From: Ectocarpus siliculosus
Lineage: Eukaryota; Sar; Phaeophyceae; Ectocarpales; Ectocarpaceae
DNA length: 64,000 nt
Reading direction: 5' to 3'
Assembly: GCA_000310025.1 (NCBI GenBank)
Contig: FN649729.1
Coordinates: 5,050,725 to 5,114,724 of the forward strand
Shown one piece after another: positions 3,661 to 46,475 of this stretch; the first letter of the stretch is position 1, and each line of letters opens with the position of its first letter. The notes under the pieces are model-generated. The model made no database searches. It saw only the letters and a program-made list of their open reading frames with translations, and had not been told where the DNA came from. Made by a program: the position numbers and the translations under genes.

Positions 3661-4612
3661 TGGAGACAGTGCTGTTGGCGAGTAGAGTTAACCGATCTCA
3701 AAAAGAAAGAACAAAACGCCGTACACGTATCAGCACGGGACGCACCAATGAGTGGAAGCACCCGCGCTGTTGGCGAGTAGAGTTAACCGAATTCAACGCA
3801 GCGGTAGGAAATACCACAAATCATGCATCAGTACGGGACGCGCCAATGAGTGGAAGCACCCGTGCTGTATATGTGTTGTCAGCCTCAGCACGGGACGCGC
3901 CAACGAGTGGAAGCACTCGTGCTGTTGGCGAGTAGAGTTAACCGATCTCAAAAAGAAAGAACAAAACGCCGTACACGTATTAGCACGGGACGCGCCAATG
4001 AGTGGACGCACCCGTGCTGTTGGCGAGTAGAGTTAACCGAATTCAACGCATCGAAAACGAAGTCGTACACGTATCAGTACGGGACGCGCCAATGAGTGGA
4101 AGCACCCGTGCTGCATATGTGTTGTCAGTTTCAGCAAGGGACGCGCCAATGAGTGCTGTTGGCGAGTAGAGTTAACCGATCTCAAAAAGAAAGAACAAAA
4201 ACGCCGTACACGTATCAGTACGGGACGCGCCAATGAGTGGGCGCACCCGTGCTGTTGGGCGAGTAGAATTAACCGATCTCCACGCATCGAAAACGAAGTC
4301 ATACACGTATCAGTACGGGACGCGCCAATGAGTGGAAGCACCCGTGCTCATATGTGTTGTCAGTTTCAGCAAGGGACGCGCCAATGAGTGGAAGCACCCG
4401 CGCTGCGTACAAGTATCATCAGTGCGGGTCGCGCCAATGAGTGGAAGCACCCGTGCTGCATATGTGTTGTTAGTTTCAGCGAGGGACGCGCCAATGAGTG
4501 GAAGCACCCGCGCTGTTGGCAAGTGGAGTTCACCGTATCCAACGCATCGAAAAAAAAAAAAAAACACGTATCAGCACGGGACGCGCCAATGAGTGGAAGC
4601 ACCCGTGCCGAT
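3661..4612 (+). repeat. Hairpin satellite, left block
   Basis: A tandem array with about 12 copies of a conserved core of roughly 33 bp. Each core has the arms CAGCACGGG and CCCGTGCTG around about 21 bases, so it can fold into a 9-bp-stem hairpin. Spacers of three kinds alternate, giving a higher-order unit of about 240-250 bp. One spacer contains AGTAGAGTTAACCGATCTC, one AGTTAACCGAATTC, and one a CATATGTGTTGTCAG-type segment. Open frames through the array are by-products of the repeat. The same satellite lies in opposite orientation at 7979-8745. Confidence 0.9.
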
Positions 4613-4931
4613 GGCGAACCGGGGTTCACCGAATCCCAAGAAAATATATATATAAAAAAAAAAAAAGAGAAACCATCGCTAGTGTTCCAAAGAGAGAAAT
4701 ATTCGGGATTGGTCGACGTCCGGTGACCGTAGCGTCAGCAGCAATAATCACTCCATTCAATCCACAGGCGTCGAGAATGAACTAACGCGAGCTCGCGATA
4801 TAACAACGCGTCGTTCTGGGCCCGACGAAAACCCACGTCAGATAGTTTCGCCCGAAGATAGGATTTGTAGACCATTCTAACTGCAGATCCAGGCGCGCGA
4901 TCGACTACGCCCACGATGAAGAGGAAAAGAA

Positions 4932-6039: not shown

Positions 6040-7284
6040 TTGGCATGCAGCTCGTCGAGCACTCAGTTGCGTCTTCGTCTAGAAGGACTTACACGTCAGG
6101 CTTCAATTCAACTCTTGGTGCACGTTTCGCAGGCTGACGGAGAAGCCCAAGTTCCTAGGGCAACGTGCCGGGGACCTTCATGTGTGGGAGTTGATAGACT
6201 TCGTAGCCTGGTGTTTCGAGTCTGAGGGTAATCTAGCGAGTACAATATCCGGAAAACTCACGGCTGTACAACATTTTCATAGGCTGGAAGCTTCTGTCGA
6301 GCTAGACTTGTCGTCTCCGATGTTGAAATGTGCGCTAAGGGGGATTGCGAGGAACCACGTGGCTGTGGGGACGGTACGCCGTGTGCGCCTGCCTGTGTCT
6401 TGGCGTATGCTGCTGGACGGGGAAAGCGCAAGCCAGAACTGGGGGGAAGGGGGCAGAGTGATGTGGCTGTGTCTGTGCTTGTCCTATCTCTTTATCACAC
6501 GGTCTGATGAGGTGTTCGCGAATGATGCGGGCAGGGTGCATGAGGCACACTGTCTTACGAGGGCGGACGTAGCATTGTTTGCTGGCGAGACGCAATTAGT
6601 CTTTAGTCACTATCGTAGAGCAGACCGTGTCGAAATGAGGTTTAGAGGGCACAAGGCCGATCAAGAGCAGAAAGGAAACATACGGGTTCGTACGCGAGAC
6701 GAAGTCACCGGACCGCAGTCAGGTGTGAGAGCACGCGGTGGCGCGGTGGCTCTTGTGGTGGAGCTGTTATCGTGTCATGCGACGTTCCCTGACTCCGCAC
6801 CGTTGGCTTCGTACCGTAGTGGAAGAGCAGTGAGAGTAGTGAGGTATACTGCTGCCCTCCGTGCACTCAGAGAAGTGGTAGCGAGGTCGGGGCGTAACCC
6901 CCAGGAGTACGCGTTGCACTCGTTGCGAATTGGAGGCGCGACGGCTCTTGCATCGGGCGGAGACATCGCAGAACGAGTGATTCAGAGAGAAGGGAAGTGG
7001 AGGTCGGATGCATACAAGCCGTACGCGCGAAACAATGTAGAGGATTCGCGGCGAGTGTCACGGAAACTTACAGACGGCAGTAGGATCGTATCGAGACAGC
7101 CGGGGGAGGGGACCGTCTGGGGGAACGGATAGTTGACTTATTCGGTAGTCGTCCAGAAACTGACCTCGATGTGGGTGTTGTAGAATGGTGTGTACCATTT
7201 GAGGACTTGGTCAGTTTTGGGACTCCTGCGTTTGCAGTCGTAGTCCCCCGGCTAGTATTTGTGGGGAGAGAGATGGATTTGTAA
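6040..7284 (+). pseudogene. Tyrosine recombinase of YR element
   Basis: A DNA strand-exchange enzyme that would integrate the element through a 3'-phosphotyrosine intermediate. The N-terminal core-binding part (SVASSSRRTYTSGF) lies before a frameshift at about 6135. The catalytic part follows in the open frame 6182-7132. Box A Arg is in FITRSDE, the beta-strand Lys region in FRGHKADQEQKG, box B His-x-x-Arg in LHSLRIGG, then GKWRSDAYKPYAR with the presumed nucleophile Tyr. The usual second His/Trp position is Trp in GKW. After an indel in a G run near 7120 the natural C-terminus continues in another frame into B1 and stops at 7284, so the last residues are encoded inside the direct repeat. Family assignment is firm; two frameshifts suggest a dead copy. 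Confidence 0.8.
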
Positions 7285-7978: not shown

Positions 7979-8745
7979 CAGCACGCGTCCCGTGCTGAGG
8001 CTGACAACACATATGCAGCACGGGTGCTTCCACTCATTGGCGCGTCCCGTACTGATGCATGATTTGTGGTATTTCCTACCGCTGCGTTGAATTCGGTTAA
8101 CTCTACTCGCCAACAGCGCGGGTGCTTCCACTCATTGGCGCGTCCCGTGCTGATACATGTACGGCGTTTTGTTCTTTCTTTTTGAGATCGGTTAACTCTA
8201 CTCGCCAACAGCACGAGTGCTTCCACTCATTGGCGCGTCCCGTGCTGAGGCTGACATCACATATGCAGCACGGGTGCTTCCACTCATTGGCGCGTCCCGT
8301 ACTGATGCATGATTTGTGGTATTTTTCTACCGCTGCGTTGAATTCGGTTAACTCTACTCGCCAACAGCGCGGGTGCTTCCACTCATTGGCGCGTCCCGTG
8401 CTGATACATGTACGGCGTTTTGTTCTTTCTTTTTGAGATCGGTTAACTCTACTCACCAACCGCACGAGTGCTTCCACTCATTGGCGCGTCCCGTGCTGAG
8501 GCTGACATCACATATGCAGCACGGGTGCTTCCACTCATTGGCGCGTCCCGTACTGATGCATGATTTGTGGTATTTTTCTACCGCTGCGTTGAATTCGGTT
8601 AACTCTACTCGCCAACAGCGCGGGTGCTTCCACTCATTGGCGCATCCCGTGCTGATACATGTATGACTTCGTGTTTCGTTGCGTTGAGATCGGTTAACTT
8701 CCACTCGCCAACAGCACGGACGAGTGCTTCCACTATTGGCGCGTC
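7979..8745 (-). repeat. Hairpin satellite, right block (inverted)
   Basis: The same satellite as at 3661-4612, in opposite orientation, with about nine full cores and a truncated one next to B2. The higher-order unit here is regular: cores recur every 250 bp in a three-core pattern (for example near 8130/8380, 8225/8475 and 8281/8531). The outer end decays from about 8700 on. Confidence 0.9.
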
Positions 8746-9907
8746 CCGTGCTGGTGCGTGTCCTTGTTTTTTTTATTTTCATTGAGATCACTTCCGCATA
8801 GACAATCCTACGGCAGGTTGACGAGTTTTTGGCATGCATCAATTGCTGTCCGGGCGTTTTTGGTCGCTTAATCGTCGATGGACGTGACGTATTCTTATAG
8901 AAGGTTTGTGTCACGGCGGCAATAAATTTGACGTGATGCCCCTCGAGACCGTGATGCACTCACATGGACCGCTACCTGACGTTCCTCGCGAGTTCGAACC
9001 TCGCGTGTCACATCCACCTCCCCCCCCTATTTTTTTCTCATCTTCTTTTTCCTTATGCATACAGCACGTAGTTCGCTGTCTCGTTTTTTTTTTCTCGTCT
9101 TCATTGTTTTTCAGTCTTTTTCTTTGAGTCTTTCTCTCGCATGCATGTGTTTTTGCTTTTATCCGTTCCCGTGAATGCTGTTGAATGCACTTTCCGATTA
9201 CGTATGCGGCCGCTTTGTATGCCATGGGACTTGTCGATACCATCAGTGGGGACTTGTCAATACCATCCGTGGAGACGATTGCTTACGTGAGTGGGCATAT
9301 TATCGTCGATTCCTTCAGCTATATGCCCCTCTGTGCGCGGCACAGACAAGATTGTACCGGCAAGTAGTCCCTAGTAAGCCGGGGGAAACAGAAAACAAGG
9401 CACCTGCCTCATGTGCATAATCGTGACAGCATCATGCCCTACTGCCGCGGGTCGATTGGTTATGTCCGATGCCGCAGGGTTCCTCCACCCCGTGCAGTAC
9501 AATGGCTGCTATCAACCGCGACAAGTCAGCGTGCGACCATACAACAGGCCCCGCTCTTTCTTTTTGCCGTTGAATTTTTTCTTCAGAGAGAGTACGTCTG
9601 GTTGGGACGAACCGCATTTTTTTTCTTCAGCGAGAGTACGTCTCGGTTGGGATGAACCGCATCCCATGTTTGGGAAGGGACCTATCTGAGCGGCGCGGCG
9701 AGCGAGACTGCGTTGGCTTGCCGCCGCTTATCTTACTGCACCCTCCCCCCTCGTGCTAAATGCACGCAGCGGTGAGGTCACAAGAGTAGCGGGACGCGAA
9801 TAGGAACACGGCCGACACGATGGATGTTGGACACGAGTACACACCTTTATATGGAGAGTCGCGTGCTGGTCACTTCCCCAATGCTTGCGCCGTGTCCCGT
9901 CCCGCCC
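8746..9907. other. Non-coding between satellite and inverted A copy
   Basis: No gene is visible. A tRNA-like T-arm sits near 8991-9010. T-rich tracts occur at 9025-9135. Around 9585-9660 a segment containing GAGAGTACGTCTGGTTGGGA is nearly repeated in tandem. On the minus strand a TATAAAG-like word near 9850 lies downstream of the A copy. Confidence 0.4.
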
Positions 9908-29583: not shown

Positions 29584-31140
29584 ATGCTACTTAGACTACT
29601 CCTGAAAGAACCACTGCCGGGGAAAGCAACACCCGAGTTAATGGGCACACGACAGACCTTGGAACAAAGCCAGAGGCACGAGGAGCAATCGGTGGACGTA
29701 AGCACGGCCAAGACAGGCCAGACGAGCCCGGCGACACGAGCGAGACTGCTAGCATTGCTCTACACGTTTAGGAGTATTTTCCCGAAGAACGCGAAGGTCG
29801 TCAAGATTAAACATGGACGGAAGGTGGGACTGCCACTCATAGACGAAAACGTCACCCCAATCGCCAGCAAAGCTCAGAGGTGGAGTCCTCCTATGGCTGA
29901 CATCTTGATGAAACAGCTCAATCGGGGACTGGCAGCGGGAACCTTCAGGCTATCCACCTCTTCGTGGTGCTCACGGATTGTGCCTGTACCTAAATCCGAC
30001 GGCACATACACAGACTACAGAGATCTCAACAAGGTCATCAAGAAGGATAGTGGTGGACTTGGCGACCTTACGGGCATGCTCGATCGGATGAAAGGGCGTA
30101 AGTTCTTCTCATCTCTCGACTTGGCACAGGCATATCATCAACTGGAACTTGAGGAGACGGACAAACATAAGACGGCCTTTAGGGACCCCACGGGACGTCT
30201 ACTGGAGTCAAATCGATGCGCCTTTGGTATCACCACAATCCCCGCCGTCTTCTCAGCCACGTTGGGTGATAATCTGCGAGAGTTATTGGGCAAGGGCTTG
30301 GAGAAATGGTTGGATGACATCGCACTCCACACAAAGACGTTGGAATAACACTTTGTACTGCTGGAGAAGGTCCTCACTATCCTGGAACGAAAAGGGTACA
30401 CAGGTCACTTCGTGAAAAGCGAGTTTCTATTGCCAGAGCTCGAGTTCCTAGGGGTCATGGTCGGAAGGGATGGAACTCGACCAGCACCATCGAAGGTAAC
30501 AGCCGTGCAAGAAATGGATACGCCGTCGACGGTGGGAGAGTTGAGGTCCTTCCTTGGACTAGCCAACTGTTTGAGGGGATTCGTACCCAAGTTTAGTGCC
30601 ATCGCCGCTCCACTATCGGACATCCTGGAGGAACAAGGAATTTAGTTCTAAACGAGCCCGTTACAAACGATTCGTCATGGGGCCTCCACAAATTGAGGCG
30701 TATATGAAACTCGTGGAGAAACTGACCACATACCCAGTGCTGGTACTATCTAATTGGCTGGAACCCTTCACGCTACATACGGATGCCAGCTTGATCGCGG
30801 CAGGGTCAGTCCTGACACAGCAGGTGGAGAACAGAGAGGCTCCGGTCGGATACGCCAGTAAGAGGTTGTCCTGGTCAGAGGAAAAACTGTCGTCAAACGA
30901 TCGGGAGGTTCTGGGAGTGTTGTATGCACTAGACCATTTCAAGATTTACCTTCAGCACCCTCATCACGGACTGTGCGGCCCTGGTGCGGCTCTTCACTAG
31001 CCAAAACCTATCGTCAAAGATGCACCGTTGGGCGCTAAAGATGATGGCGTATGATATGGTCTTGAAGTGGAGAAGGGGAACAGACCATGTCGTTCCAGAC
31101 GCTCTCTCTCGACTCCGGCGGAAAGGCTCTGGCGAACCCG
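29584..31140 (+). pseudogene. Reverse transcriptase and RNase H of gypsy element 1
   Basis: The polymerase domain reads through GTYTDYRDLNKVI, FSSLDLAQAYHQLELEE and WLDDIALHTKTLE. The catalytic box is W-L-D-D where most families have Y/F-x-D-D. An in-frame TAA (30346-30348) interrupts it. The same frame then continues with the thumb (FLGVMVGRDGTRPAPSKV, RSFLGLANCLRGFVPKF) to another stop at 30645. After a frameshift the RNase H domain follows: FTLHTDASLIAAGSVL, YASKRLSWSEEKLSSND, then in a third frame MMAYDMVLKWRRGTDHVVPDALSRL. The order and motifs are those of Ty3/gypsy elements. At least one nonsense and two frameshift lesions make it inactive. Confidence 0.88.
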
Positions 31141-34531: not shown

Positions 34532-35630
34532 GTATGCACTCACCTCCCATCACCTTTTGGTACCGTATTCTCTCTCTCTCCTCTCGGTGTGTGTGTGTGT
34601 CTGTGTATCCACGTTGTCTTTAAATTTTTGCTTTTTTTCTCTCTTCACCGCTCTCGCGTCGGAATGGTCTGTTGTTTGCTCCGATTCCAGCAACGGTGTT
34701 GTGTGCTCCGGTTCCGATAATTAATCCCCCTTCTAAAGGTCCGGAAAATACGAAATGTACACTCCTTTACTACCTCCACTCTCGATGGCTACCCCGGCCC
34801 ACTCCTCCCACTCCTCTGTAGCTACTCCGGCTTCGCACTCCTTCTGTTACTTCGAGAAAACATTGCCTTGGAATCGCTTCAAATAAAGCGGGGGCGCGCA
34901 GCGCCCAAAACCTTGTACACAATCTCAAATTTTCGGTTTTAGGAGACGATGTATTTATGTAGGAGACGATATTCACTGCACACAACGCTGCACACAACAT
35001 ATATATATTCTACATTACATCACATAGATATATAGGACGAAAAAAACAGATAGGACCATTGTTGGAAAGCTCCTATCAGCAGCGCGGCCGGTCGCGAAAA
35101 GCCTGCTCGATGCGCCTACGCCTACAAAAAACAAGATAACCTTTCACCTTGCCTATCTACTATATTGTCCGTGTTGTATATACATATACATGAGGGAGAT
35201 AATAATACCCTCCGCATGTAACAGACACCCTTGACATTCGGTGACGAAGCCTCCAACCGCACGCCTTCGTCTACCACGTCAGGCGGCAATGGTGAGAAAT
35301 ATTGTTCTCCCGTGCCCCTCGCACACACATAATAACCCCAACAACGAGAGGACAGACACCTGGCCGGACAAAAAGGACCAAGTAAATATGTTCTCCCGCG
35401 CCGCCCATTGTTATAGGATTCAGATGTGTAGACGGAACATAGAAGAGAATGGTTCCTTCTAGAAGGCGCGGAGAGATGTAACTCCCCGCGGAAGGATAAA
35501 ACAGGGGACAAGGATCTATTAATATTTAGTAGCCCCTGCTTGTACTGAGGATCCTGCGCCCCTTGGTGTCTTTCCTACCGATACCCAAGGCAACAGCTAC
35601 TGCTGCTGCTGTTCTCCAAGAGTAATAACA
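34532..35630. other. Non-coding; possible 5' LTR of gypsy element 2
   Basis: No gene. The segment from about 35216 (TGTAACAG) to about 35629 (AATAACA) has TG...CA ends and lies just before the second gypsy coding region. It could be its 5' LTR, but no partner copy exists to confirm this. A (GT)n run and T-rich tracts lie at 34580-34640. Confidence 0.3.
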
Positions 35631-35817
35631 AGTGAGTTCTTCTTCACGGGTCAACCAGACTTCATCACGCGTGCATACCACCACACTCGGCGTTGTCGGC
35701 TTCTTCGTACGGTGTTGTCTGGGTTGGCTGTGTCTTGGCACGGTTTGGTGCTTTAGGCTGCTGCTGCAGTTTTTTGCGCTCTCGTCCCAACCACAGCTTA
35801 GCTTCGCCTCGCTTATC

Positions 35818-38626
35818 GGTATGTCTCAACCTAGCGTCGGCTCTTCGGACTCTGCTTCGGCGAGTCCTGAGCATTCGGAACGTTCGCGTTCGCCAGTGTC
35901 ATCGCCCCGCGTAGCGACCTTCGGGTCCCCAGCAGCTGGTCGTCAGACCACACAACCGCTGTTGTCTTCGGACATTGCTCGCGCCGCTGACCCTGTTGCC
36001 GAAGCCGCTCGTTTGTCAGAGCTTCGCGCTCAACGCACACGGGAGAGGTTCGCCTCGCCGGCTTCGGCCGACGCTAACCCCGTGGGTGCTGTCCTCAAAC
36101 CGCCAGCACCCACACCTGGAACTTCGGTTTCTGCCTCTGTGCCTTTGGGTGTACCACAGCAGTCCGTCTCGTCGGCTGCTGGTGATGAGCTTTCTGAATT
36201 CCCGCGTGAGCCACATGTCGACTCGAATTTTCCTCTCGCTCCATCCACCGTTGAGCACTCTGCTCTTGGGACAGACATCGGTTTCGACCGTGTTGCTGGC
36301 CCTGTAGTACCGCGCTTGTCCAGTCGCTCGGCTTCTCGCAGCACGTTGCAATTTGACTATACAGTGCCGGCGATCCCTCCTTTTTCTTCTCGTAGCGATC
36401 GTGTACAAGCAGCGGCTCGCACTCAACGGCTTCGTGACCGCCGTGCATCTGCTTCAGTGACATCACCGCTTGCAGATTCCGCCGCATCACATCCGTCTGT
36501 TCCAGTAGTTTCGACTACACGGGTGATTTCGATTGTCTCTGGTACACTCCCCACCGTAGCGTCGGCTACCCCGACCCTTTCGGTCGCTTCCAATGCATTT
36601 GATTCCGTGGTTTCGCCCACACAGGCAATTTCGTTTTGCCTCCGATGCTTTAGCTTCAGTAGTTTCGACTACATATGCGGTTTCGACTGCTTCTGATGTA
36701 CCTGTTTCTGCGGTCTCGACTGCGGCAGGTGTATTTGCCTCCATCCCTTTAGCTCCGCCTCTATCCACAGTTTCGACTGTTCGCGGTGCTTTTGCCTTTG
36801 CAGCCCCACCTTTGCGTGCCGTTTCGACGCTGCGTACTGTGCCGTCTGCCCCCCCACATGCCTTTCATGTTCCCACTACCGGTGCACCTGTTTCTGCGGT
36901 TTCGACTGCTGCACGTGTACCCTTGCCCATTCCGTTAGCCCCGCCCCTACCCACAGTTTCGACTGCTGGCGATGCTATTATTCCTGCAGCTACGCCTCTG
37001 CGTACCGTTTCGACTCTGCGTAAAGTGTCGTCTGCCCCCTTCCCCGCCCCCACTATCTTCACACAGGGCCCTGTGCCGGCTGCTTTGACTGCTGTACACA
37101 CCGCTGTTTCTATGCCCGTAGATGCGCCTCTACCCGCATTTTTCACAGATTCACGTGTTCACACGGCGGGTCTCGAGCCTACAGTTTCGACTGATTTTGC
37201 CATGCTAGCTTCTGCTTCGGCGCCCCTAGCTGCGACTTCGATTGTTTTCGCAGTGCCCTCTGCCGCTGCACCTTTTACTTTTTCTAACATGGTGCCCCCA
37301 CCCCCCCCATGCTTTCCTCATCGCATGAACGTGCTGCTACGGCTGATGCCTTGCTTCGTCTTGAAATCGCAGAGCGCCGTAACCGCCATCTCTACGATCC
37401 TTCGCCGTACTGCGATGGTGGCCACGGCTCCTATGGTCAAGCCCGAGACGACGTCTTCTGCTGGGCTGTCGAATCCAGAGCTTCGGGCTTCAACCACCGG
37501 TGGCGGAGCGAGGTCCGAAGTCACCGGCAGGCCGGCCGATCGTGTCCCGATGGTCCTACCCCCCGCGGCGTCTGCGACTTCGGCTACCACCGCTGCTTCG
37601 GCGGTGCCCTCGGCTTCGGCCACCACCGCTGCTTCGGCGGCGCCCTCGGCTTCGTCCGCCACCCCTGCTTCGGCAGTACCCCCAGCTTCGGCCACGGCTT
37701 CGGCCACGGCTGCACCCCTCTCCTGCCCGCTGTGGCTCCCTCAGGCTCTGTGGAACGTCATGTCCGCGGAGGCACGTTCGACCGCCTGCACGGACGCCGT
37801 TCGCATGGCGAGCGGCGCGGCCGTCGATGCCGACCGAGCGGCCGTCCAACAAGCACAGGACGACCTCGCCAACGAGGAGCTCCATCAGGAAGTCTCCGCC
37901 CGCGAGGAGGAGCTCAAGCTCCTGTGAGTGACGCGAGCTTCTAACGCGCAGCAAATCCTCGATGTCGAGGCTCTTCAAAAGAAATTCGACCATCAGCGGA
38001 GTCAGCTGGCCGCCACCCTGACGGCAGACCGGCGCCAGGAGGACGCCCTTGTCGAAGCTGGCCGCAAGGCCGGAAAACGGCGTGATCAGAACCTCCGTGA
38101 ACGTGCGGCGCGGTCGCCCCGCGTCTCGGGAGCCGGCGGGAGAGCTGTTTTTGCACCGACCACCTCTGCCGCCTCGTCTCGCACGTATGCGGCTGCAGCT
38201 TCCTCCAGCCCGGTCACCCGCTCCTCGTCGTCGCGGCACGGTCCCATCACCTTCGAGTCCGGCGACTTCAGGTTCACCCCGGCCAAACTGGCTGATGTGG
38301 CGCAATACCATCAGTTCAACTTCCTTCCTGGGGATAGCCAATTGGTCAGGGACTTGGCCACGGAAGTGGCCATCGCGTTGCCGGCGGTCATCACCATCCA
38401 GGAGGCGGTGGATGTGGCCAACACCTCCCGTCCGGATCTTCGGGATCTGGCCGGCCGTTTCCTCGCTGGGATACGCACGGCCAACGCCCACGCCACTGCT
38501 CCCGTGGGTGTACCCTGGCTGCAGTGGCCCGTCTTCGGAGGCCTCCGGTGGGTTCCAGCAGCCAGCGCCGGGTCGTGTCAAGAAAGCACAACCGTCACGT
38601 TCGAGTCGGGTGAGTGGTCCTGGTAG
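35818..38626 (+). pseudogene. Gag leader of gypsy element 2, Ser/Ala/Thr-rich
   Basis: Starts at an ATG (MSQPSVGSSDSASASPEHSE) and runs about 270 codons to a frameshift near 36640. It continues in a second frame with repeated V-S-T-rich blocks (APPLSTVSTVRGAF, APPLPTVSTAGDA). A poly-C run at about 37305 marks a further local shift. Around 37800-38060 a coiled coil follows (AVQQAQDDLANEELHQEVSA, ALQKKFDHQRSQLAATL), interrupted by one in-frame TGA (37925-37927). The last part (about 38230-38560) reads ITFESGDFRFTPAKLADV. The leader resembles a disordered Gag extension; I know no family for it. The TGA could be a lesion or a leaky stop. Confidence 0.55.
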
Positions 38627-40725
38627 CTCGGGAGAGAAGTCTGGCTGGAGCTCGGCCGGAGCATCGCGTCGACCCCCGGAGCCCTCGTCCTCTTCGGTGG
38701 GCGGGAGCCGGGAGAGAAAGGTGGCCAAGCGTGGCGGATGGCGCTCGTGGCTCCAAGAGCAAGAGCGGGACCGGGTCGGGCTCAGACACCAGCTTGTCCC
38801 GCAAGCCGGGCCGCCAAAGGCAAGTAGTTCCGTCCCTTATGGACGCGACTTCAGGTGCTCGTTTCTTTTTGCGTGATGATTTTGTTCCTCCGGCTTCGGC
38901 CCCCCCCGTTTCTTCGGAAACTCGTGTTGCGTTTTCGAACCTTCCGGCTTCAGCCCCCCCTGTTTTTTCTACCGCTCACCACGCTGTAGATTCAGGAATC
39001 GTGCAGAACCCTGGGTTTTCGCACCCAACCTCCCCCTCGGCGTTTGTACCACCTGTGCCGGGTGTTCCGCATGTTGTGTTGTCTTCGGACCATGCTCCCC
39101 CTGCTGCTTCGGTAGCTGCTGTCACACCCCCCGTTGTTATTGATGATCGTGTTGTGCCACTTTCTTCGAACATCGCACATGCTCGTCAAGCCACGATTGA
39201 TGCGACCGATGCTAATGCACGTGCGGTTCATGTCACCACAGTGAAACGCGCGTACATCACCCTCAACTTGAAAAAAGTCGAGAGTGTCGCTACCATGTCC
39301 TTTCCTGCAACTCTGTTGCCGGGAGATGGCTATGAACAGCTTCTTCACACAACACGTACGGCTTTATCCGACATTTCGTTGTTGTGTGATGAGCAGAGTG
39401 ATGGGTTGCATGGTACCGATTTCGTGCGTGGGTGGGAACGACCCCTCGAAAAGAAACTTTTGAGTGCGATCACCCCTTACAAGCCCTCCACTGCCGATCT
39501 CGTCCTCTCCATCACTGATTACTTTCAGCAGGTGAAGAGAAGCCTGGACGGCGGCGCCACTGGACCAGAAGCTTTTCAGTTGCTGTTGCGTCATCTTGCA
39601 GAGCAAGTTGATGTCGGCGATCGTCAAGAGTCGTTTTTTACGGCTACAACAATTTGGCGTAGCAGATGGTACTTCTTTCGCGGATTACCTTCGTGCTTTC
39701 CGTTCGTTGGTTTCGTCTGTGACTGGCTCTGAGCGTACTCTGGCTCCTAGTGTATCCATGGTTCTAAATAGTGCGGCATTCGGTCTGCAAGCAGTTTCCG
39801 AGTTTGTCTCCGGTTTTGTACCCGTGTGCTCTGGCCACGGCTGTCACACCCTTTGCGTCGATTGCGGATATGTGGGAGGCGTTCGCGCCTCTAGCGACAA
39901 ATAAAACCCCGGCTATCGGCGGTTCATTTTTTTGTTCGTTGTCTTCGACGCGTGGCTCCTCGCAGCCTCGGCGGTCCCAACACCGCGCTGCCGCGCCTTC
40001 GGGCCAGTGGACACCAGGTTCTGCTCAGAACCCTGTAGGTTTGCCGGTACAATCGCACGATGCCGACCCTTTCACACGCAACTATAATTCTTGGCGTGCC
40101 TCGCAAGCCGATTGGTCTGATGTATACGCTCTCACTTCTAGTTTTCGTAACACGGATGATCCTTTGTTGTGGACTCCTTTGTTGACACAAGAGGCTCGCC
40201 TTCCGCGAAAGCAGGAATCACTGTCTGAACTGCTCGGGTGAAGACCATTCCATGAAGCAATGCGTTGCACCGTTCACAAATTCTAGTGGGTTGTTGAACC
40301 CCGAGTTGGGCCTCCTCAATGACGATTCTGCTGCTTTTAGACGTTGGCAAGGCCGTATGCGGTCTTTTCGCCGAAAAAGTGCGGACAACCGCCAAAACAA
40401 TCAGGGTAGACGCCACCAGCACTCTTCCTCTTTGTCCTCTCAGCGTCGAAACCACGCTGGAAATCGCCGTTCCGACGGTGGTAGTTCCCCTCACACTCAT
40501 CAGACACAATCGCACTACAGTGGGAATGCCCCGGGAAATTCTGCGGGTAACTCTCACTCTCAGCAACACCCTTCGGTCAACACCCACCACACTGGTGCTC
40601 TGTCCCTCTATCAACCACAAACACATGCACACACCGGTCCTTCGTCTGGCATCATGGTTTCGACCAATCACAATGCCCGTCAACCTGGCAACTTCCAAAA
40701 TGATGGTCGTTCTCGCAGCGGATGA
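38614..40725 (+). pseudogene. Gag capsid and nucleocapsid-like region of gypsy element 2
   Basis: The frame 38614-39732 carries a Pro/Ala-rich linker, then a helical capsid-like part (YITLNLKKVESVATMSF, LLHTTRTALSDISLLCDE, ITDYFQQVKRSL). After a frameshift near 39640 it goes on with GTSFADYLRAFRSLVSSVTG. After a second near 39775 it continues with SIADMWEAFAPLATNKTP to a stop at 40241. Downstream (40252-40725) lies a basic His/Gln/Asn/Ser-rich tail (GRMRSFRRKSADNRQNNQGR) that would bind RNA. No CCHC zinc knuckle is visible. The assignment rests on position and pattern. Confidence 0.6.
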
Positions 40726-42080
40726 CTCATCGGCGGTGGTTCGCCTACTTCCCTCGGACCGCCTTCAGCATCTTCGGGGACTTCGTCTCGTTCTTCACAA
40801 GACGCTCGTGTGTCACGCTCTGTTGCCCCTAATACTTCGGTTTTATGCAACCACGACAATACTTCGGTATCTGTCGCGCCGCCACACACTGTTGCCTCTA
40901 GCACTTCGGTCTTACGCGACGATAACCACACTTCGGTGAATGTTATCCCTTCTGGTACTTCGGTGCCGCACAATAACAACCATACTTCGGTATCCGTTGT
41001 TCTCCCAGTGTTGATCAGGTCTGTATCCAGACATATGCTCTCGTCCCACCTTCTTCATCGCACTTATCGTCTGCCACCTCTGCGTCTCTGCCTCTTCGGG
41101 CTGGCGCTCCGTCAGAAACTAACCAGTCTGGCGCGAGTGCGGCCTTGAGGTGCGGGAACAGAACCGTAGGACCTTCGGGGCCATTGAGTACCGCTCGTTT
41201 GTCGGGCACCGCTCGTTCGTTCCCCCCGTCGTCTGCAGATCAGACCGGCCGTAGCCATGCGCTTTGGACGATTGAGGAGGAATCGCCTGAATTGGTTACC
41301 TCGGGTGAATCTTCGGATACGCTCAACTCGTCTGTGCTCGCTTCCGTTGAGGGTTCGCCCTCGATTGTTGCACCGGTAGCTAACTTTACTGGTTCCGACC
41401 GGCAAGTTGCAGGGTCAAATATTCGCCTGGCTTCGAATCACATTGTTCTCTTGGTCCCGACGGCCGAACACCATCAGATTCCGCCACGAGATATTTCGAA
41501 CATGGATCGTCTTGGAGCGCTCCATCCCTTCCGACGCACGCTCGCCCCACGGCGCCCAATACCAGGCCGCCGCGACCGACGTCGACAGTGTTGACACCAC
41601 CGCTTCGGGAGACCCTCCCGGCGTGACCTCCGAACAGCCGGCGGTCTCGCGTACCTTGTCACGGAGGAATGGCCAGGAGCACCACGCCCGGTTTGGTTCT
41701 TTAACCGACCCGGCCTTGGCGGCCGTTCCTAGCGAAAGCGGCCTGTTGAATGACACCTTACGAGGAGTTTCTTCAGGTTTAGAATTGGGGCGCACCCAGC
41801 GCGATATCGCTGGCCCAATTATTGCGAACAATCCGGCTCCGGTCGGTTCTTCGCCGGTCTCTGACATACCCGAGACTGTCCCCATGGACGTCCATGCCGT
41901 ACATTACACTGCGGGCGTTTCGGCTGCCTCCGCTTCGGCTACACCAGCTTCGGCTGCCACCTCAGTTTCGGCTGACCGCACTCCAGGTGTTTCGACTTTT
42001 GCAGTTCCCTCTGTCTTCGACCCGTCTAACGAGTATTGTACTCCTGACATGGTCTTCTTTAGGCAGCCCTCCTCTCCGCG
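40726..42080 (+). other. Low-complexity linker of gypsy element 2, NTSV repeats
   Basis: Open but low-complexity sequence between the nucleocapsid-like tail and the NADAR domain. At 40840-41000 a segment of 17-20 codons with NTSV or HTSV at its core recurs about five times. From 41407 one frame runs into the NADAR domain and includes an Ala/Ser-rich stretch (SAASASATPASAATSVSA). Confidence 0.6.
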
Positions 42081-42089
42081 GACACCGTC

Positions 42090-42494
42090 GACTTTTGTGG
42101 TCGATGGAGTGGTATACTCGTGTGCTGAGCAGTTTTTCGCTGAGGAAAAAGCTCGTCTTTTCGACGACCATGTAGCGCTTTACAGCACATCATGCGCGTG
42201 TCCGATCCTGCCTTGCACAAGAATTTTGGCCGCGGTGTCCGTGGTTTCGACCCACCTCTTTGGGAACGCGAGCGCGAAAATATTATGCTCTTACACAAAA
42301 TTTAGTCAAAACTCCGAGTTGCGCGATCATCTTCTCGGATCTGGCGACAAAATCCTTGCCGAAGCCAGCCCCTACGACCGTATTTGGGGCATTGGCCTTC
42401 AAGCCGATGATCCTGACGCTCAATACACCTCTCGATGGCGTGGCCTCAATTTGTTGGGCAACGCCCTTCAACGAGTACGCAGTCTTTTGCGATG
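42090..42494 (+). pseudogene. NADAR (YbiA/DUF1768-like) domain in retrotransposon
   Basis: The three successive frames give the complete motif series of the NADAR family in order. Frame 1 reads VVDGVVYSCAEQFFAEEKARL. A shift near 42178 opens frame 2: HIMRVSDPALHKNFGR, GVRGFDPPLWERERENIM. A shift near 42300 returns to frame 1: KFSQNSELRDHLLGSGDKIL, LAEASPYDRIWGIGL, WRGLNLLG. These match the N-terminal E-x-x-F/Y-x-x-x-K, the GR...GFD...W-x-x-x-R helix and the L-x-E-x-S-P-x-D-x-x-W-G-I-G core known from YbiA. Known members hydrolyse N-glycosidic bonds, either of riboflavin-pathway intermediates or of ADP-ribose on guanine. Two frameshifts break this copy. I infer that it was part of the Gag-Pol polyprotein; its role is unknown. 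Confidence 0.87.
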
Positions 42495-42749
42495 TAATGC
42501 CCCGCCACCCGAGCGCAGCTCTCGTTTGCTGCCCCCCAGCGATCACGTTTCGACGTCATCTCAACACAACGCGGTCTATGAAGTTAGCCCTTCCACACAC
42601 CAACGTCTCCGGACGACCTCAAGCCCTCCGTCGACTGAACGATTCGCGTCATTTTCACAATACGCTGCGAATGTTCCATCGGATCATGACACTGGTCTTC
42701 CGGGTGCACCCCGCCATCCTCTTCCTCTTCTTTGCTTCCTGAGCAAGGT

Positions 42750-43140
42750 CCGGATTTGGTTGATGGTGTTGTTATCATCGATGATGACTCTTTCACCACC
42801 CAAATCCTCACTCACAGTGGTTCAGCTTCTGTTCAGTTTGGATGTGTTGCCCTTTTGGACACGGGTTCCCCGTAGTCTTTTATTAGTGCATCTGCGTGGG
42901 AATCCATGAAAGCCGCTTCGGCCGCTTCGTCGTTGTCTGAGAAACAAACCCAACCTCGCTGTTGGGGAGGTTTCGGCGAAACTTCGACTATTGTCCGTTC
43001 GAGCGTGCAGTTTCTTCGCAAGCGCCTGCCTACTTCCTCTCTCGCTGTTTGGGCGTACGTTGTTCCCGATGGTGTCATGCATCATGATGTGCTCCTCGGG
43101 AGAGACAGTTGGATGCGGTTTAGCGACCGCTCTTACCGCA
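42750..43140 (+). pseudogene. Aspartic protease of gypsy element 2
   Basis: Frame 42822-42875 reads FGCVALLDTGSP, the retropepsin active site D-T-G, then a stop. A neighbouring frame continues with AWESMKAASAASSLSEKQ and DGVMHHDVLLGRDSWMRF, the C-terminal strand with Leu-Gly-Arg-Asp that many Ty3/gypsy proteases share. One nonsense or frameshift lesion separates the halves (about 42873). A short segment before it (VIIDDDSFTTQILTHSG) probably belongs to the same domain. Confidence 0.7.
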
Positions 43141-43829
43141 CTTTGCGTGCGAAACGCCCTGGTGACCGTGTTTTTGGTGAGCTTACTCTGGCTCAGCATG
43201 GCAGTTGCGGTGCCACCGCATTTGCTCACGATTTGCCTTCCACAGATGGTAACTACCAACTTCGCTATGCTGGGAAACATTCCGTCCAACTTCACCCCGA
43301 ACATAGCCTTGTTCCGGTTAATTTGGTGCGCAGCGATGGCTCTCCAGAGCTCTCGTAGGTAACTATCTGGTGGATATTCTTCCACAATGTGCTATGTTTT
43401 CTTCCGAGGAACATTTTGTGCAAAATGGTTGCCAAAGACTCCCGCTCGCGGGTATCTCTTCCCTCTAACCAGGCGACATTCTGGGTACAGCTTCGGCTCC
43501 CCTTCTTCGCGTGCCTCTCAGTGCTGTGTCTCGTCACAGTTTGAGCGATGGTCTTCAATCTGCGGCTCAAGATCCCACCGCTGCTTCGGGCAACTGGGTT
43601 CCGGGTCCTGTTTCGACAGGTGGCATTGATTCGTCTGCCGAGCGTCGCATTGATGACCCCTTCGTGTACAATTTGCATGAGCGACCCGCGCCGTCGCCAC
43701 GCGGCAAAGAGGACCCTGGTTCTGCCAGTGCTTCTCTTTCGTCGCCTCCGCCTGCTCTTCTCGAGCGGTTGACGTCCGAACAACGTCAGAGTTTTTCCCG
43801 CGTGTAGGATAAGCTCCGCTGCCATCTCC

Positions 43830-45310
43830 GTGAGATTTCTTTTGGTCTCCATGGTCCGGGTTGGACTCCAGATGTCATCACTCAGCTTGGTAACGTCCTG
43901 TGCGACTATCATGATGTCTTCTCGAGTTCCCCCACCGACTTTGGATCTTGTTCGCTTTTTCCTTTCATGCTTACAGTTCCTCCAGGCAGTGCACCCGTCA
44001 CGTCTCGTCCATACCGCGTTAACCCCCCGGTGGCGAAACAAGTTGACGCGATCCTTGATCAATATCCTGCGGCTGGTCTGATCCAACATTCGACCTCGCC
44101 CTACTCGAGTCCCGTGGTAGTCATACCGAAGAAATCTGGTGGTGTTCGCATCACTGTCAATTATCGCAAGCTCAACAAGCTTTGTGCTTTGAGCCAGCTT
44201 CCGATCCCTCGAGTTGGTGATACTTTGAACAAGTTGTTGAAAGGGCGAATTTATTCCCTTTTTGATAAGAAGTTTTCGTTCCACCAAATCACGGTTCACC
44301 GTGACACAGTCCCTTTGACGGCGTTCGTGACGTCTTCCGGGCTTTTTGAGTGGTTGAAGATGCCTCAAGGCAGTTCTGCTGCCCCTGGGTGGTTTTGCAA
44401 GGTGGTCAACGAAGTCATCAAAAATCTCCACGGTGTTGCATCGTACTTGGATGATGTGATCGTTTTCGACGACAACCCTGCTTCTCATGTTGATACCAGC
44501 GCGCTCTGTTTGAACGTTTGCGTACACACAACTTGAAACTCGCCCCACCGAAGGCCACCATTGGCGCTACCGAAGCGGACATCCTCGGCCACACCATCTC
44601 TCCCGACGTTGTTCGGCCTAACGGGGCCAAGGTTGCGGCCCTCACCCAAATGCCCATGCCCAAGGATGTTAAGCAACTTCGCTCCTTCTCGGCGGCCTCA
44701 GCTACTACCGCAAGTTCCTTCCCAATATGGCTACGCGGATTCGACCTCTGACCACTCTTCTCTAGAAGCAGGCGACGTTCGTCTTCACCCCTGCCATGGA
44801 GCAAGCTGTTCGCGTCCTGCTGCCTGAGTTACCCAACCCTCCTGTCTTGGTTTATCCGGATTGGGATGCCGTTTCGGACGGCTCGCGACCTTTCCGTCTC
44901 TACTGTGATGCTAGTCGCGATGGGTTCGGTGGGACTCTCGAACAAGAACAGAACAGCCGGATGGCTCCATCCGACCCATCGTTTCCATCAGCCGAGCTAC
45001 TTTGGACTCTGAACGTCATTGGACTCCCCTCGACCTCGAGGCGGGTAGCATCGTGTGGTGTATCAACCGACTTCGCGGTTATTTGTGGGGTACGCAATTT
45101 CGCATTTTTACCGACCACGAATCTCTTGAGCATTTTGCCAAGGTGGGAGAGAACAATGAACCGCGTTCAGCGTTGGCTCGAATTTCTTACCGCCTACAAT
45201 TACACTCTCGAGTACCGCAAGAGGGTTCCGCAAATGGCAACGCTGATTTCCTCTCTCGCCTTCCGATCGATGCGGCGGAATGTGACCGATCTGGTCGCAG
45301 CCGCTTGACA
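43830..45310 (+). pseudogene. Reverse transcriptase and RNase H of gypsy element 2
   Basis: The best-preserved part (43967-44536) reads RPYRVNPPVAKQVDAIL, SPVVVIPKKSGGVRITVNYR, FDKKFSFHQITVH, FEWLKMPQGSSAAPGWF and VASYLDDVIVFDD, with the Y-L-D-D catalytic box. After frameshifts the thumb (LGHTISPDVVRPNGAKVAAL, QMPMPKDVKQLRSF) and the RNase H domain follow in alternating frames: LYCDASRDGFGGTLEQEQ, LEAGSIVWCINRLRGYLWGT, FTDHESLEHFAKVGENN and NGNADFLSRLP. The catalytic Asp (CDAS), Glu (LEAGS) and Asp (TDHESL, NADFLSR) are all visible. At least four frameshifts prevent a continuous product. A linker to about 45632 follows instead of integrase. Confidence 0.9.
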
Positions 45311-45627
45311 CCGAATGACGATGAGGAGAGCGTGTTCTTCATCCGCTCTTGTGGCCTTACGCCTTCTGGCCATCGCGCCGTGGGTGTTGGCTTGGGTGGG
45401 CTCGTCCCCACTTCCCCGACTTCGGTCTTGGGTGGGCTGGCCCCCTCTACAGATGATTTCGTCGACTTCCGTCGGCATGGTCCACGTCTCTCGCCGTCAG
45501 GCCTTTCGTCTCCACCTAGCATCTGGAACATGGCACCCTGGATGTCCAAGAAGCTCCGCGAGTTGCCTCCTTCGAGACTGCGTAAGCGGGCCCTCGTTTG
45601 GTCTGGCTCCTTACACTCTTCGGTGGA

Positions 45628-45650
45628 GGGTTAGGGTTAGGGTTAGGGTT
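45628..45650 (+). repeat. Interstitial telomere-type repeat (TTAGGG)
   Basis: Almost four perfect TTAGGG units lie exactly where gypsy element 2 breaks off, before its integrase. The sequence to the right (AACCTTGGTGG) is unrelated to the element. The tract is too short to be a telomere and marks a joint. Confidence 0.9.
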
Positions 45651-45842
45651 AACCTTGGTGGTACGTAACGTGCGTAAGGTTGTTCGGATAGATTAGATTG
45701 TTTTCGACTAAGTATTCCAACATCCGAGCATCTCCGTTGTTTTTCGTTAAAAAGGGGTCCTCGCCCGCCTATCTATGAGTCATTGATCGTCACTGGGTTA
45801 ATGTAACATCCGCTTGTTGTCCACCCACAAACAAACGTATGC

Positions 45843-46475
45843 ATGACATTTTCTGCGCTTCCTGGGATCAGATGCTTTGTCAAAGCCGAGACTCTTCCGG
45901 AGGATATGGCGGCTGAGCTCAGCAAGCAACACGGAAAGACCCGGTTCCAGATCGCCGAGCCTGCCTTGAAGGCTCTCACGGAGACTCTCAACACGTTGAG
46001 CACGAGCGTGCACGAGGCGCACCAGCAGGGATCCCGAATCGAGGACGAGGACATCGCCGAACTCATGGCAGACCTCCGCATCGAACCCGGAAAGCCGATC
46101 GTGGAGGAAGCGGTGAACGCGATTCAGGGGTGGGCTACCATCGAGGACGACGATGAAGTGGTTGAGGCTCTCAGACAGGATACGGTGGACGACATGACTT
46201 CACAGCTGGCTGGGACTCGCGTGTCTACCGGCTGCGAGGATGAGGACGAACAGGAGGACAGCGGCGATGACAACACGGGGCTGGCTCGCCGTGCCCCACC
46301 GGCTTATTATGGTGAACTGTCGTCTCACTTCGGCGTCCTGGAAGCGGCAGCAGAGGAGAGTGGCAACGGAGACGCGGCGCTCTACCTAGCGAAAGCGAAG
46401 ATGGCGATGATTGCACCGCATTCCGCTAAGCGGGTGCGCCAGGCAGACATGAGAGAGTTTGTTGCTCCGGAGTAA
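45843..46475 (+). CDS. Possible C-terminal fragment of a DDE (pogo/Tc5-like) transposase
   Basis: A 211-codon open frame with coding-like composition. The first codons may be intronic: an AG at 45871-45872 could be an acceptor, after which it reads CFVKAETLPEDMAAEL, like the N-x-C-F-x-K-A-G-I-L tail segment of pogo-type transposases. Then follow helical acidic stretches (IEDEDIAELMADLRIEP, EEAVNAIQGWATIEDDDEVV) and a C-terminus KAKMAMIAPHSAKRVRQADM. No catalytic core is present, so if it belongs to a transposase it is only the tail, possibly one exon. The alternative is an unknown host gene. Its last 25 codons are partly duplicated downstream (46573-46645). Confidence 0.4.
   Translation: MTFSALPGIRCFVKAETLPEDMAAELSKQHGKTRFQIAEPALKALTETLNTLSTSVHEAHQQGSRIEDEDIAELMADLRIEPGKPIVEEAVNAIQGWATIEDDDEVVEALRQDTVDDMTSQLAGTRVSTGCEDEDEQEDSGDDNTGLARRAPPAYYGELSSHFGVLEAAAEESGNGDAALYLAKAKMAMIAPHSAKRVRQADMREFVAPE

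Follow-up and report, generated by a model that had tools for sequence, protein, structure and literature searches.

The window analysed here is a 64,000-nucleotide stretch of the Ectocarpus siliculosus genome (assembly GCA_000310025.1, contig FN649729.1, positions 5,050,725 to 5,114,724), and it holds a dead copy of a Ty3/gypsy long terminal repeat (LTR) retrotransposon from a large brown algal family, whose Pol region includes a NADAR domain. All parts of the element lie on the forward strand. The 5′ LTR (35409..35686) aligns over 280 bases, at 90% identity, with the LTR of a copy on contig 23 (locus L031), whose Gag and Pol frames were used to trace the remainder by tblastn. The Gag region (38539..40722), which survives as four frame pieces, contains a zinc-knuckle-like CLNC...GH..KQC read by eye, and the Gag frame of L031 gave no match in a Pfam search. 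An in-frame UGA followed by C (40723..40725) separates Gag from NADAR-Pol, and directly 3′ of it lies a predicted H-type pseudoknot (40726..40780), which was scored in other copies and whose pairing is found in the window copy too. The NADAR domain (42082..42492), with its middle part out of frame, is followed by a Pol piece that includes the aspartic protease (42696..43352; L031 Pol residues 667-890, 94%), recognised by eye from its LLDTGS motif; a Pfam search of the frame covering the protease region (42876-43355) gave no match. The reverse transcriptase (RT; 44123..44500, PF00078, E = 1.2e-16) and RNase H (44954..45199, PF17917, E = 1.2e-15) domains come next. Similarity to L031 in blastn ends at 45629, and past that point integrase was not matched in this comparison; nor was a 3′ LTR found, the LTR query matching the window once over its length. 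Just beyond that limit there is a 222-codon open frame (45807-46475). The copy is heavily decayed, with Pol in nine frame pieces and Gag in four, and an Rfam scan of 35300-45700 returned no matches up to E = 1. With Gag matches stopping at 40722 and the protease-containing piece beginning at 42696, the position between Gag and protease given in the original prediction is borne out.

The identity of the domain is secure. PF08719 matches the frame 41380-42906 with 93.4 bits and E = 2.4e-26 (cut-off 35.1), from frame residues 235 to 371 (nucleotides 42082-42492) and profile positions 26-163 of 163; chance similarity is rejected at this E value, and the NADAR motif series first noticed by inspection is confirmed. 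The middle motif, GVRGFDPPLWERERENI, sits in a separate frame (42176-42739) that alone gave no Pfam match. The domain is broken in the way that the original prediction gave, by two mutually cancelling frame-changing indels, and a short in-frame loss precedes the motif series. In another locus, L033 (G000:C89), the middle of NADAR is also out of frame while the surrounding frame stays open. Its lesions differ from those of the window copy, and a subfamily carrying the window's double frameshift was rejected.

Structural matches agree with the profile. Taken from an open copy in the genome, the domain matches PDB 8BAU, an oomycete NADAR with ADP-ribose, at E = 4.9e-19 and PDB 2B3W, the Escherichia coli YbiA, at E = 7.3e-9; for the window frame the match to 8BAU has E = 1.6e-8, and in open Pol frames from three subfamilies the PF08719 match reaches E ~1e-45. 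A Glu and a Lys seven residues apart, and a later Glu, align with both structures, and all three catalytic residues are present in the window copy, though its middle is out of frame. The catalytic residues of the E. coli C7 NADAR are E88 and K95 (PMC11543638), and YbiA-type enzymes carry a catalytic Glu in the last strand where DarT1-linked NADARs have Asp (PMC11125620). That the later Glu corresponds to this last-strand Glu is a reading from the alignment, on which the domain is a YbiA-type NADAR. The closest solved structure, 8BAU, to which the element domain is likened by its E value and by the alignment of these three residues, is a YbiA-subfamily protein active on guanine-ADP-ribose (PMC11543638); it differs in being a P. 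nicotianae protein outside any element.

When the 189.5 Mb genome was searched with PF08719, 230 candidates came up; 150 of them were scored, and every one of these exceeds the curated cut-off. The window copy (G000:C4:5092806-5093216) ranks 143rd, with 95.5 bits in the genome search against 169.4 for the best. Open frames of at least 2,000 codons occur at 26 of the 150 matches, two of them with a stop inside the match; the frames of 10,887 and 6,365 codons are probably inflated by masked runs of N. Seventy-four loci were taken (30 from the search, the next 40 places as domain stretches, and four longer stretches), and all match the NADAR domain of L031 or of L032. The domain therefore belongs to the element, as had been proposed: open copies are numerous, and a host fragment captured only in the window copy is rejected by the 150 above-cut-off matches and by the 74 loci. 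Omitting the four longer stretches (three because their places were already represented, and L033 because its middle is scrambled) leaves 70 copies, the best-scoring 70 of the 150 matches, which were grouped by eye into six subfamilies, A to F; the window copy is closest to subfamily A. Twenty more matches, partial or low-scoring and retrieved separately, all have their best match among the six subfamilies, although several are weak (L090, 50% identity) and 16 are broken into two frame pieces.

The open copies define the architecture of the intact element. L031 has a 776-codon Gag frame, a UGA and then a Pol frame of at least 2,177 codons that stays open to the end of the sequence taken for this locus. 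At the start of Pol a low-complexity linker precedes NADAR, and in the Pol frames of L031 and L034 (subfamily B) Pfam matches NADAR, RVT_1, RNase H, Integrase_H2C2 and rve in that order, the protease being recognised only by its LLDTGS or LLDSGS motif. NADAR occupies the same place in the Pol of L034 and of L032 (subfamily D); in L032, NADAR, RVT_1 and RNase H were matched and integrase was not, the stretch there being masked. Downstream of the L031 integrase a chromodomain is matched weakly (E = 0.0092, short of the Pfam cut-off), in agreement with the chromodomain given for Gypsy-12_Ec32 (PMC12477816). In the L031 copy, the only one in which the LTR pair was inspected, the two LTRs are identical (269 of 269 bases), and by eye there are a 4-bp CATA target-site duplication and a primer site, TGGCGTTGTCGGC, after the 5′ LTR; this copy is thus a recent insertion. 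By its Pol order, LTR pair, duplication and primer site, the element is classified as a Ty3/gypsy LTR retrotransposon.

To assess whether the domain is maintained, the 70 copies were compared. The catalytic Glu, Lys and later Glu are kept in 70, 69 and 69 of them, respectively, the exceptions being one Lys changed to Gln and one Glu changed to a stop; these are the best-scoring copies, and counts from them favour intact residues, a bias that matters less between subfamilies. For the D-E pair, synonymous divergence (dS) is 1.03 and nonsynonymous divergence (dN) 0.16, giving dN/dS = 0.16. The other 14 of the 15 subfamily pairs are near or past synonymous saturation (13 are past correction and B-E has dS = 2.67), and in these the proportion of synonymous differences (pS) is 0.73-0.88 against 0.22-0.35 for nonsynonymous differences (pN), with proteins that are 54-68% identical. 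Among subfamilies A, B and D, identity is 57-67% in NADAR, 62-69% in RT and 69-72% in RNase H, compared with 50-54% in the protease, 44-73% in the covered part of integrase and only 17-42% in the linkers flanking NADAR. Selection has constrained NADAR and the polymerase to a similar degree: because its conservation is close to that of RT and far above that of the linkers, and because pS far exceeds pN, we conclude that NADAR is kept by purifying selection. The same figures bear on whether NADAR might be a passenger sequence, copied along without benefit. Many copies are broken, including the 16 of 20 low-scoring or partial matches in two frame pieces, and mean pN/pS within subfamilies A to F is 0.13, 0.60, 0.28, 0.14, 0.07 and 0.25, so that the value for B would suit a passenger; set against the D-E ratio, the excess of pS over pN in the other 14 pairs and the contrast between NADAR and its linkers, this explanation is very improbable.

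The NADAR-Gypsy fusion is therefore real and kept by selection, and it is already known. The novelty implied by the original prediction does not stand: a NADAR fusion in one Ectocarpus Gypsy lineage, from Ectocarpus sp. 7 and exemplified by Gypsy-12_Ec32, was published by Dinatale et al. in 2025 (PMC12477816). The present family is likened to that lineage by description, and its nearest named database copies are also from Ectocarpus. The terms readthrough, stop codon and frameshift are absent from the main text of that paper, and in the open literature, supplements aside, we found no report for this lineage of a junction signal, a host gene or selection figures. Tx1 LINEs of the oyster Crassostrea gigas encode a divergent NADAR-like ORF1 (PMC12477816), and so also place NADAR within a retrotransposon protein, but in a non-LTR element, in ORF1 and in divergent form.

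The junction between Gag and NADAR-Pol has a conserved form of its own. In the open copies Gag and Pol share a frame and are separated by UGA followed by C. Among 34 junction rows, this UGA-C is the nearest in-frame stop before NADAR in 17 (14 of 31 when each place is counted a single time), comprising 3 of 4 rows in subfamily A, 6 of 12 in B, 2 of 4 in C, 4 of 5 in D and 2 of 9 in F; the other rows, in which a different in-frame stop lies closer to NADAR, are read as decayed. Of two copies retrieved later from subfamily E, a close kin of D, L096 carries the UGA with its following C and a stem 8 nt away, together with extra stops before NADAR, and L095 lacks a UGA-C junction. On the 3′ side of the UGA, a stem begins after 6-9 nt (8 nt in B, C, D, F and L096; 6 or 9 in A), with a loop able to pair downstream in a predicted pseudoknot. 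Copies with both UGA-C and the predicted pseudoknot include the window copy (40723-40780), L031, L034, L029, L032, L019 and L096, the window copy retaining UGA-C and a similar pairing.

The strength of this pairing was scored post hoc, the scoring having been written after the pairing had been noticed in the sequences. Summed over one copy per subfamily, the score came to 159. In 200 joint dinucleotide shuffles the sum averaged 53 and never exceeded 122, and when overlapping windows were drawn jointly from the same linkers, none of 100,000 draws reached 159. Taken singly, equally good shuffles among 200 numbered 2 for A, 2 for B, 0 for C, 36 for D and 0 for F, and equally good linker windows 10 of 406 for A, 0 of 345 for B, 0 of 319 for C, 41 of 262 for D and 0 of 253 for F. 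UGA-C and the predicted pseudoknot are likely to form a readthrough signal in this brown algal Ty3/gypsy lineage. At the gag/pol junction of murine leukaemia virus, a UAG is followed by an 8-nt spacer and a pseudoknot. The present junction resembles that one and the junction of the Candida element Tca2 in having gag and pol in one frame, one stop and a predicted pseudoknot after it, and differs from both in belonging to a brown algal Ty3/gypsy element and in being known from sequence.

Relatives of the domain were sought by searching ~5.8 billion proteins with the L031 NADAR, which gave 2,510 matches. Among the best 120 of these, the top is occupied by Ectocarpus and metagenome proteins, and named planctomycete and myxobacterial NADAR proteins are 55-58% identical. 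Four of the proteins (P0009, P0029, P0032 and P0041; two from Ectocarpus, one from Pylaiella and one from EukProt) have 209-248 residues and resemble products of a stand-alone gene. The counterpart of such a gene in the window's genome lies on contig 24 (L264, G000:C24:2124600-2127600) as four pieces in three frames, which indicates that the host NADAR gene has introns. Of these pieces, three share 83-95% identity with P0009 and the fourth 62%. The N-terminus of this host gene has a Cys/His-rich stretch, CKLPGCSRPC...HDYCGVTH, and P0009, its Ectocarpus relative, has a Pfam match to NADAR only. Nine proteins came from a search with whole Pol in which only the NADAR part was scored: six also carry RT and RNase H, two of them from Ectocarpus sp. 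CCAP 1310/34, and the other three are long proteins with NADAR as sole Pfam match (P0127, 1,501 residues; P0128, 1,199; P0129, 1,883).

The nearest non-element relative of the element NADARs is thus the intron-bearing host gene, followed by bacterial NADARs. In an 84-row tree, built without the unnamed proteins ranked 61-120 and three long-branch rows, one branch separates the element NADARs, together with the host gene and seven loose proteins, from 55 others, which are top hits; its support is 89/99, below the program's own mark of 95. The element NADARs alone need seven changes on this tree. The suggested check of whether they form one retroelement clade did not show one, the host gene lying on the same side of the branch; in approximately unbiased (AU) tests, neither a clade of elements and loose proteins without the host gene (p = 0.43) nor placement of the host gene with bacteria (p = 0.41) was rejected. 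Because the nearest non-element relative is a stand-alone host gene, an exchange of NADAR between host gene and element, in either direction, is likely on these comparisons. Such an exchange is the simplest reading, and separate origins would be compatible with the AU tests.

For the role of the domain we favour, with a probability of roughly 0.4, an active guanine-ADP-ribose hydrolase that is made by readthrough, carried on Gag-Pol, and would protect the RNA or complementary DNA (cDNA) of the element. Ribosomes would mostly make Gag, and a minority would pass the UGA, aided by the downstream pseudoknot, to give a Gag-NADAR-protease-RT-RNase H-integrase protein. As a minor share of the particle proteins, this product would bring NADAR into the particle, beside the RNA and the nascent cDNA. 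There, NADAR could hydrolyse the N-glycosidic bond of ADP-ribose on guanines in the RNA or single-stranded cDNA of the element, and thereby reverse a host (or foreign) ADP-ribosylation that would otherwise block reverse transcription. NADARs, including the oomycete YbiA-type enzyme, strip ADP-ribose from guanine in DNA (PMC11543638), and all NADARs tested also strip it in RNA (PMC11833690); the idea of protection fits this biochemistry and the retained catalytic residues.

Several points weigh against this proposal. The choice of best-scoring copies flatters residue retention, the copies of subfamily B drift, and the pseudoknot of subfamily D, taken alone, is no better than chance. Tca2 has a UGA and a potential pseudoknot at gag/pol, which are reported not to have directed readthrough by themselves in yeast (PMC2194720). 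Exon-by-exon searches of the window's genome, which can miss genes, gave no DarT match (the same search responded in one of 14 control genomes) and four short PARP-type matches only (the PARP control responded in none of 14 named genomes). Finally, the targets of orphan NADARs may lie elsewhere, for example in riboflavin intermediates or in soluble derivatives of ADP-ribose (PMC11543638, PMC9503650). With no DarT match and a later Glu of the YbiA type instead of Asp, the element domain does not resemble the NADAR of a DarT-NADAR toxin-antitoxin pair. An extended version, in which a particle-borne guanine-ADP-ribose hydrolase, kept at the readthrough junction and shared with the host gene, would counter a host ADP-ribosylation of nucleic acids directed against retroelements, as a eukaryotic parallel to the DarT/NADAR conflict of phages and bacteria, is unlikely.

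The substrate could instead be soluble. An active NADAR may act on NAD-derived molecules arising from host silencing or stress, such as cyclic or linear ADP-ribose signals and by-products of RNA repair, and not on element nucleic acids; this is possible but somewhat unlikely. The retained catalytic residues suit it as well, YbiA cleaves riboflavin intermediates (PMC11543638), and viral NADARs, those of phage above all, may favour soluble derivatives of ADP-ribose or by-products of RNA processing (PMC9503650). However, the exon-by-exon search of the genome gave no match to a KptA-type RNA-repair enzyme, and NADARs in the polyproteins of eukaryotic RNA viruses, a layout which the element shares, are argued to act mainly on macromolecules (PMC9503650). 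In nidovirus, hepe-like and picorna-like polyproteins they are proposed to reverse host-made macromolecular ADP-ribosylation (PMC9503650). The likeness, drawn by description, is that of a NADAR embedded in a polyprotein with a polymerase; the difference is that these are animal RNA viruses without reverse transcription.

A role without catalysis, in RNA binding, as a packing surface of Gag-Pol or in recruitment to ADP-ribosylated chromatin, is also conceivable. The nematode protein SNA-3, which has NADAR domains, is implicated in trans-splicing (PMC11125620), and the weak chromodomain match after integrase could mean that chromatin recognition matters; with Glu, Lys and Glu each kept by 69-70 of the 70 copies, from all six subfamilies, such a role is distinctly unlikely.

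Other repeats lie elsewhere in the window. A second, distant RT match (29857-30639; 28% identity, E = 2e-23) is probably the remains of another gypsy-like element. Repeats with a period of ~250 bp occur in both orientations at 3668-4617 and 7984-8789, and a 236-bp perfect direct repeat is found at 7174 and 7743.

ADP-ribosylation of nucleic acids has been firmly established in bacteria, and little about it is understood in eukaryotes. That a selfish element has held on to NADAR in six subfamilies, under a constraint similar to that on its polymerase, suggests that its host cells contain a substrate worth removing; brown algae, which can be cultured, would be a place to seek both the modification and the enzyme that makes it. 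If functional, the conserved UGA junction would supply a testable rule for the dose of the enzyme in each particle.
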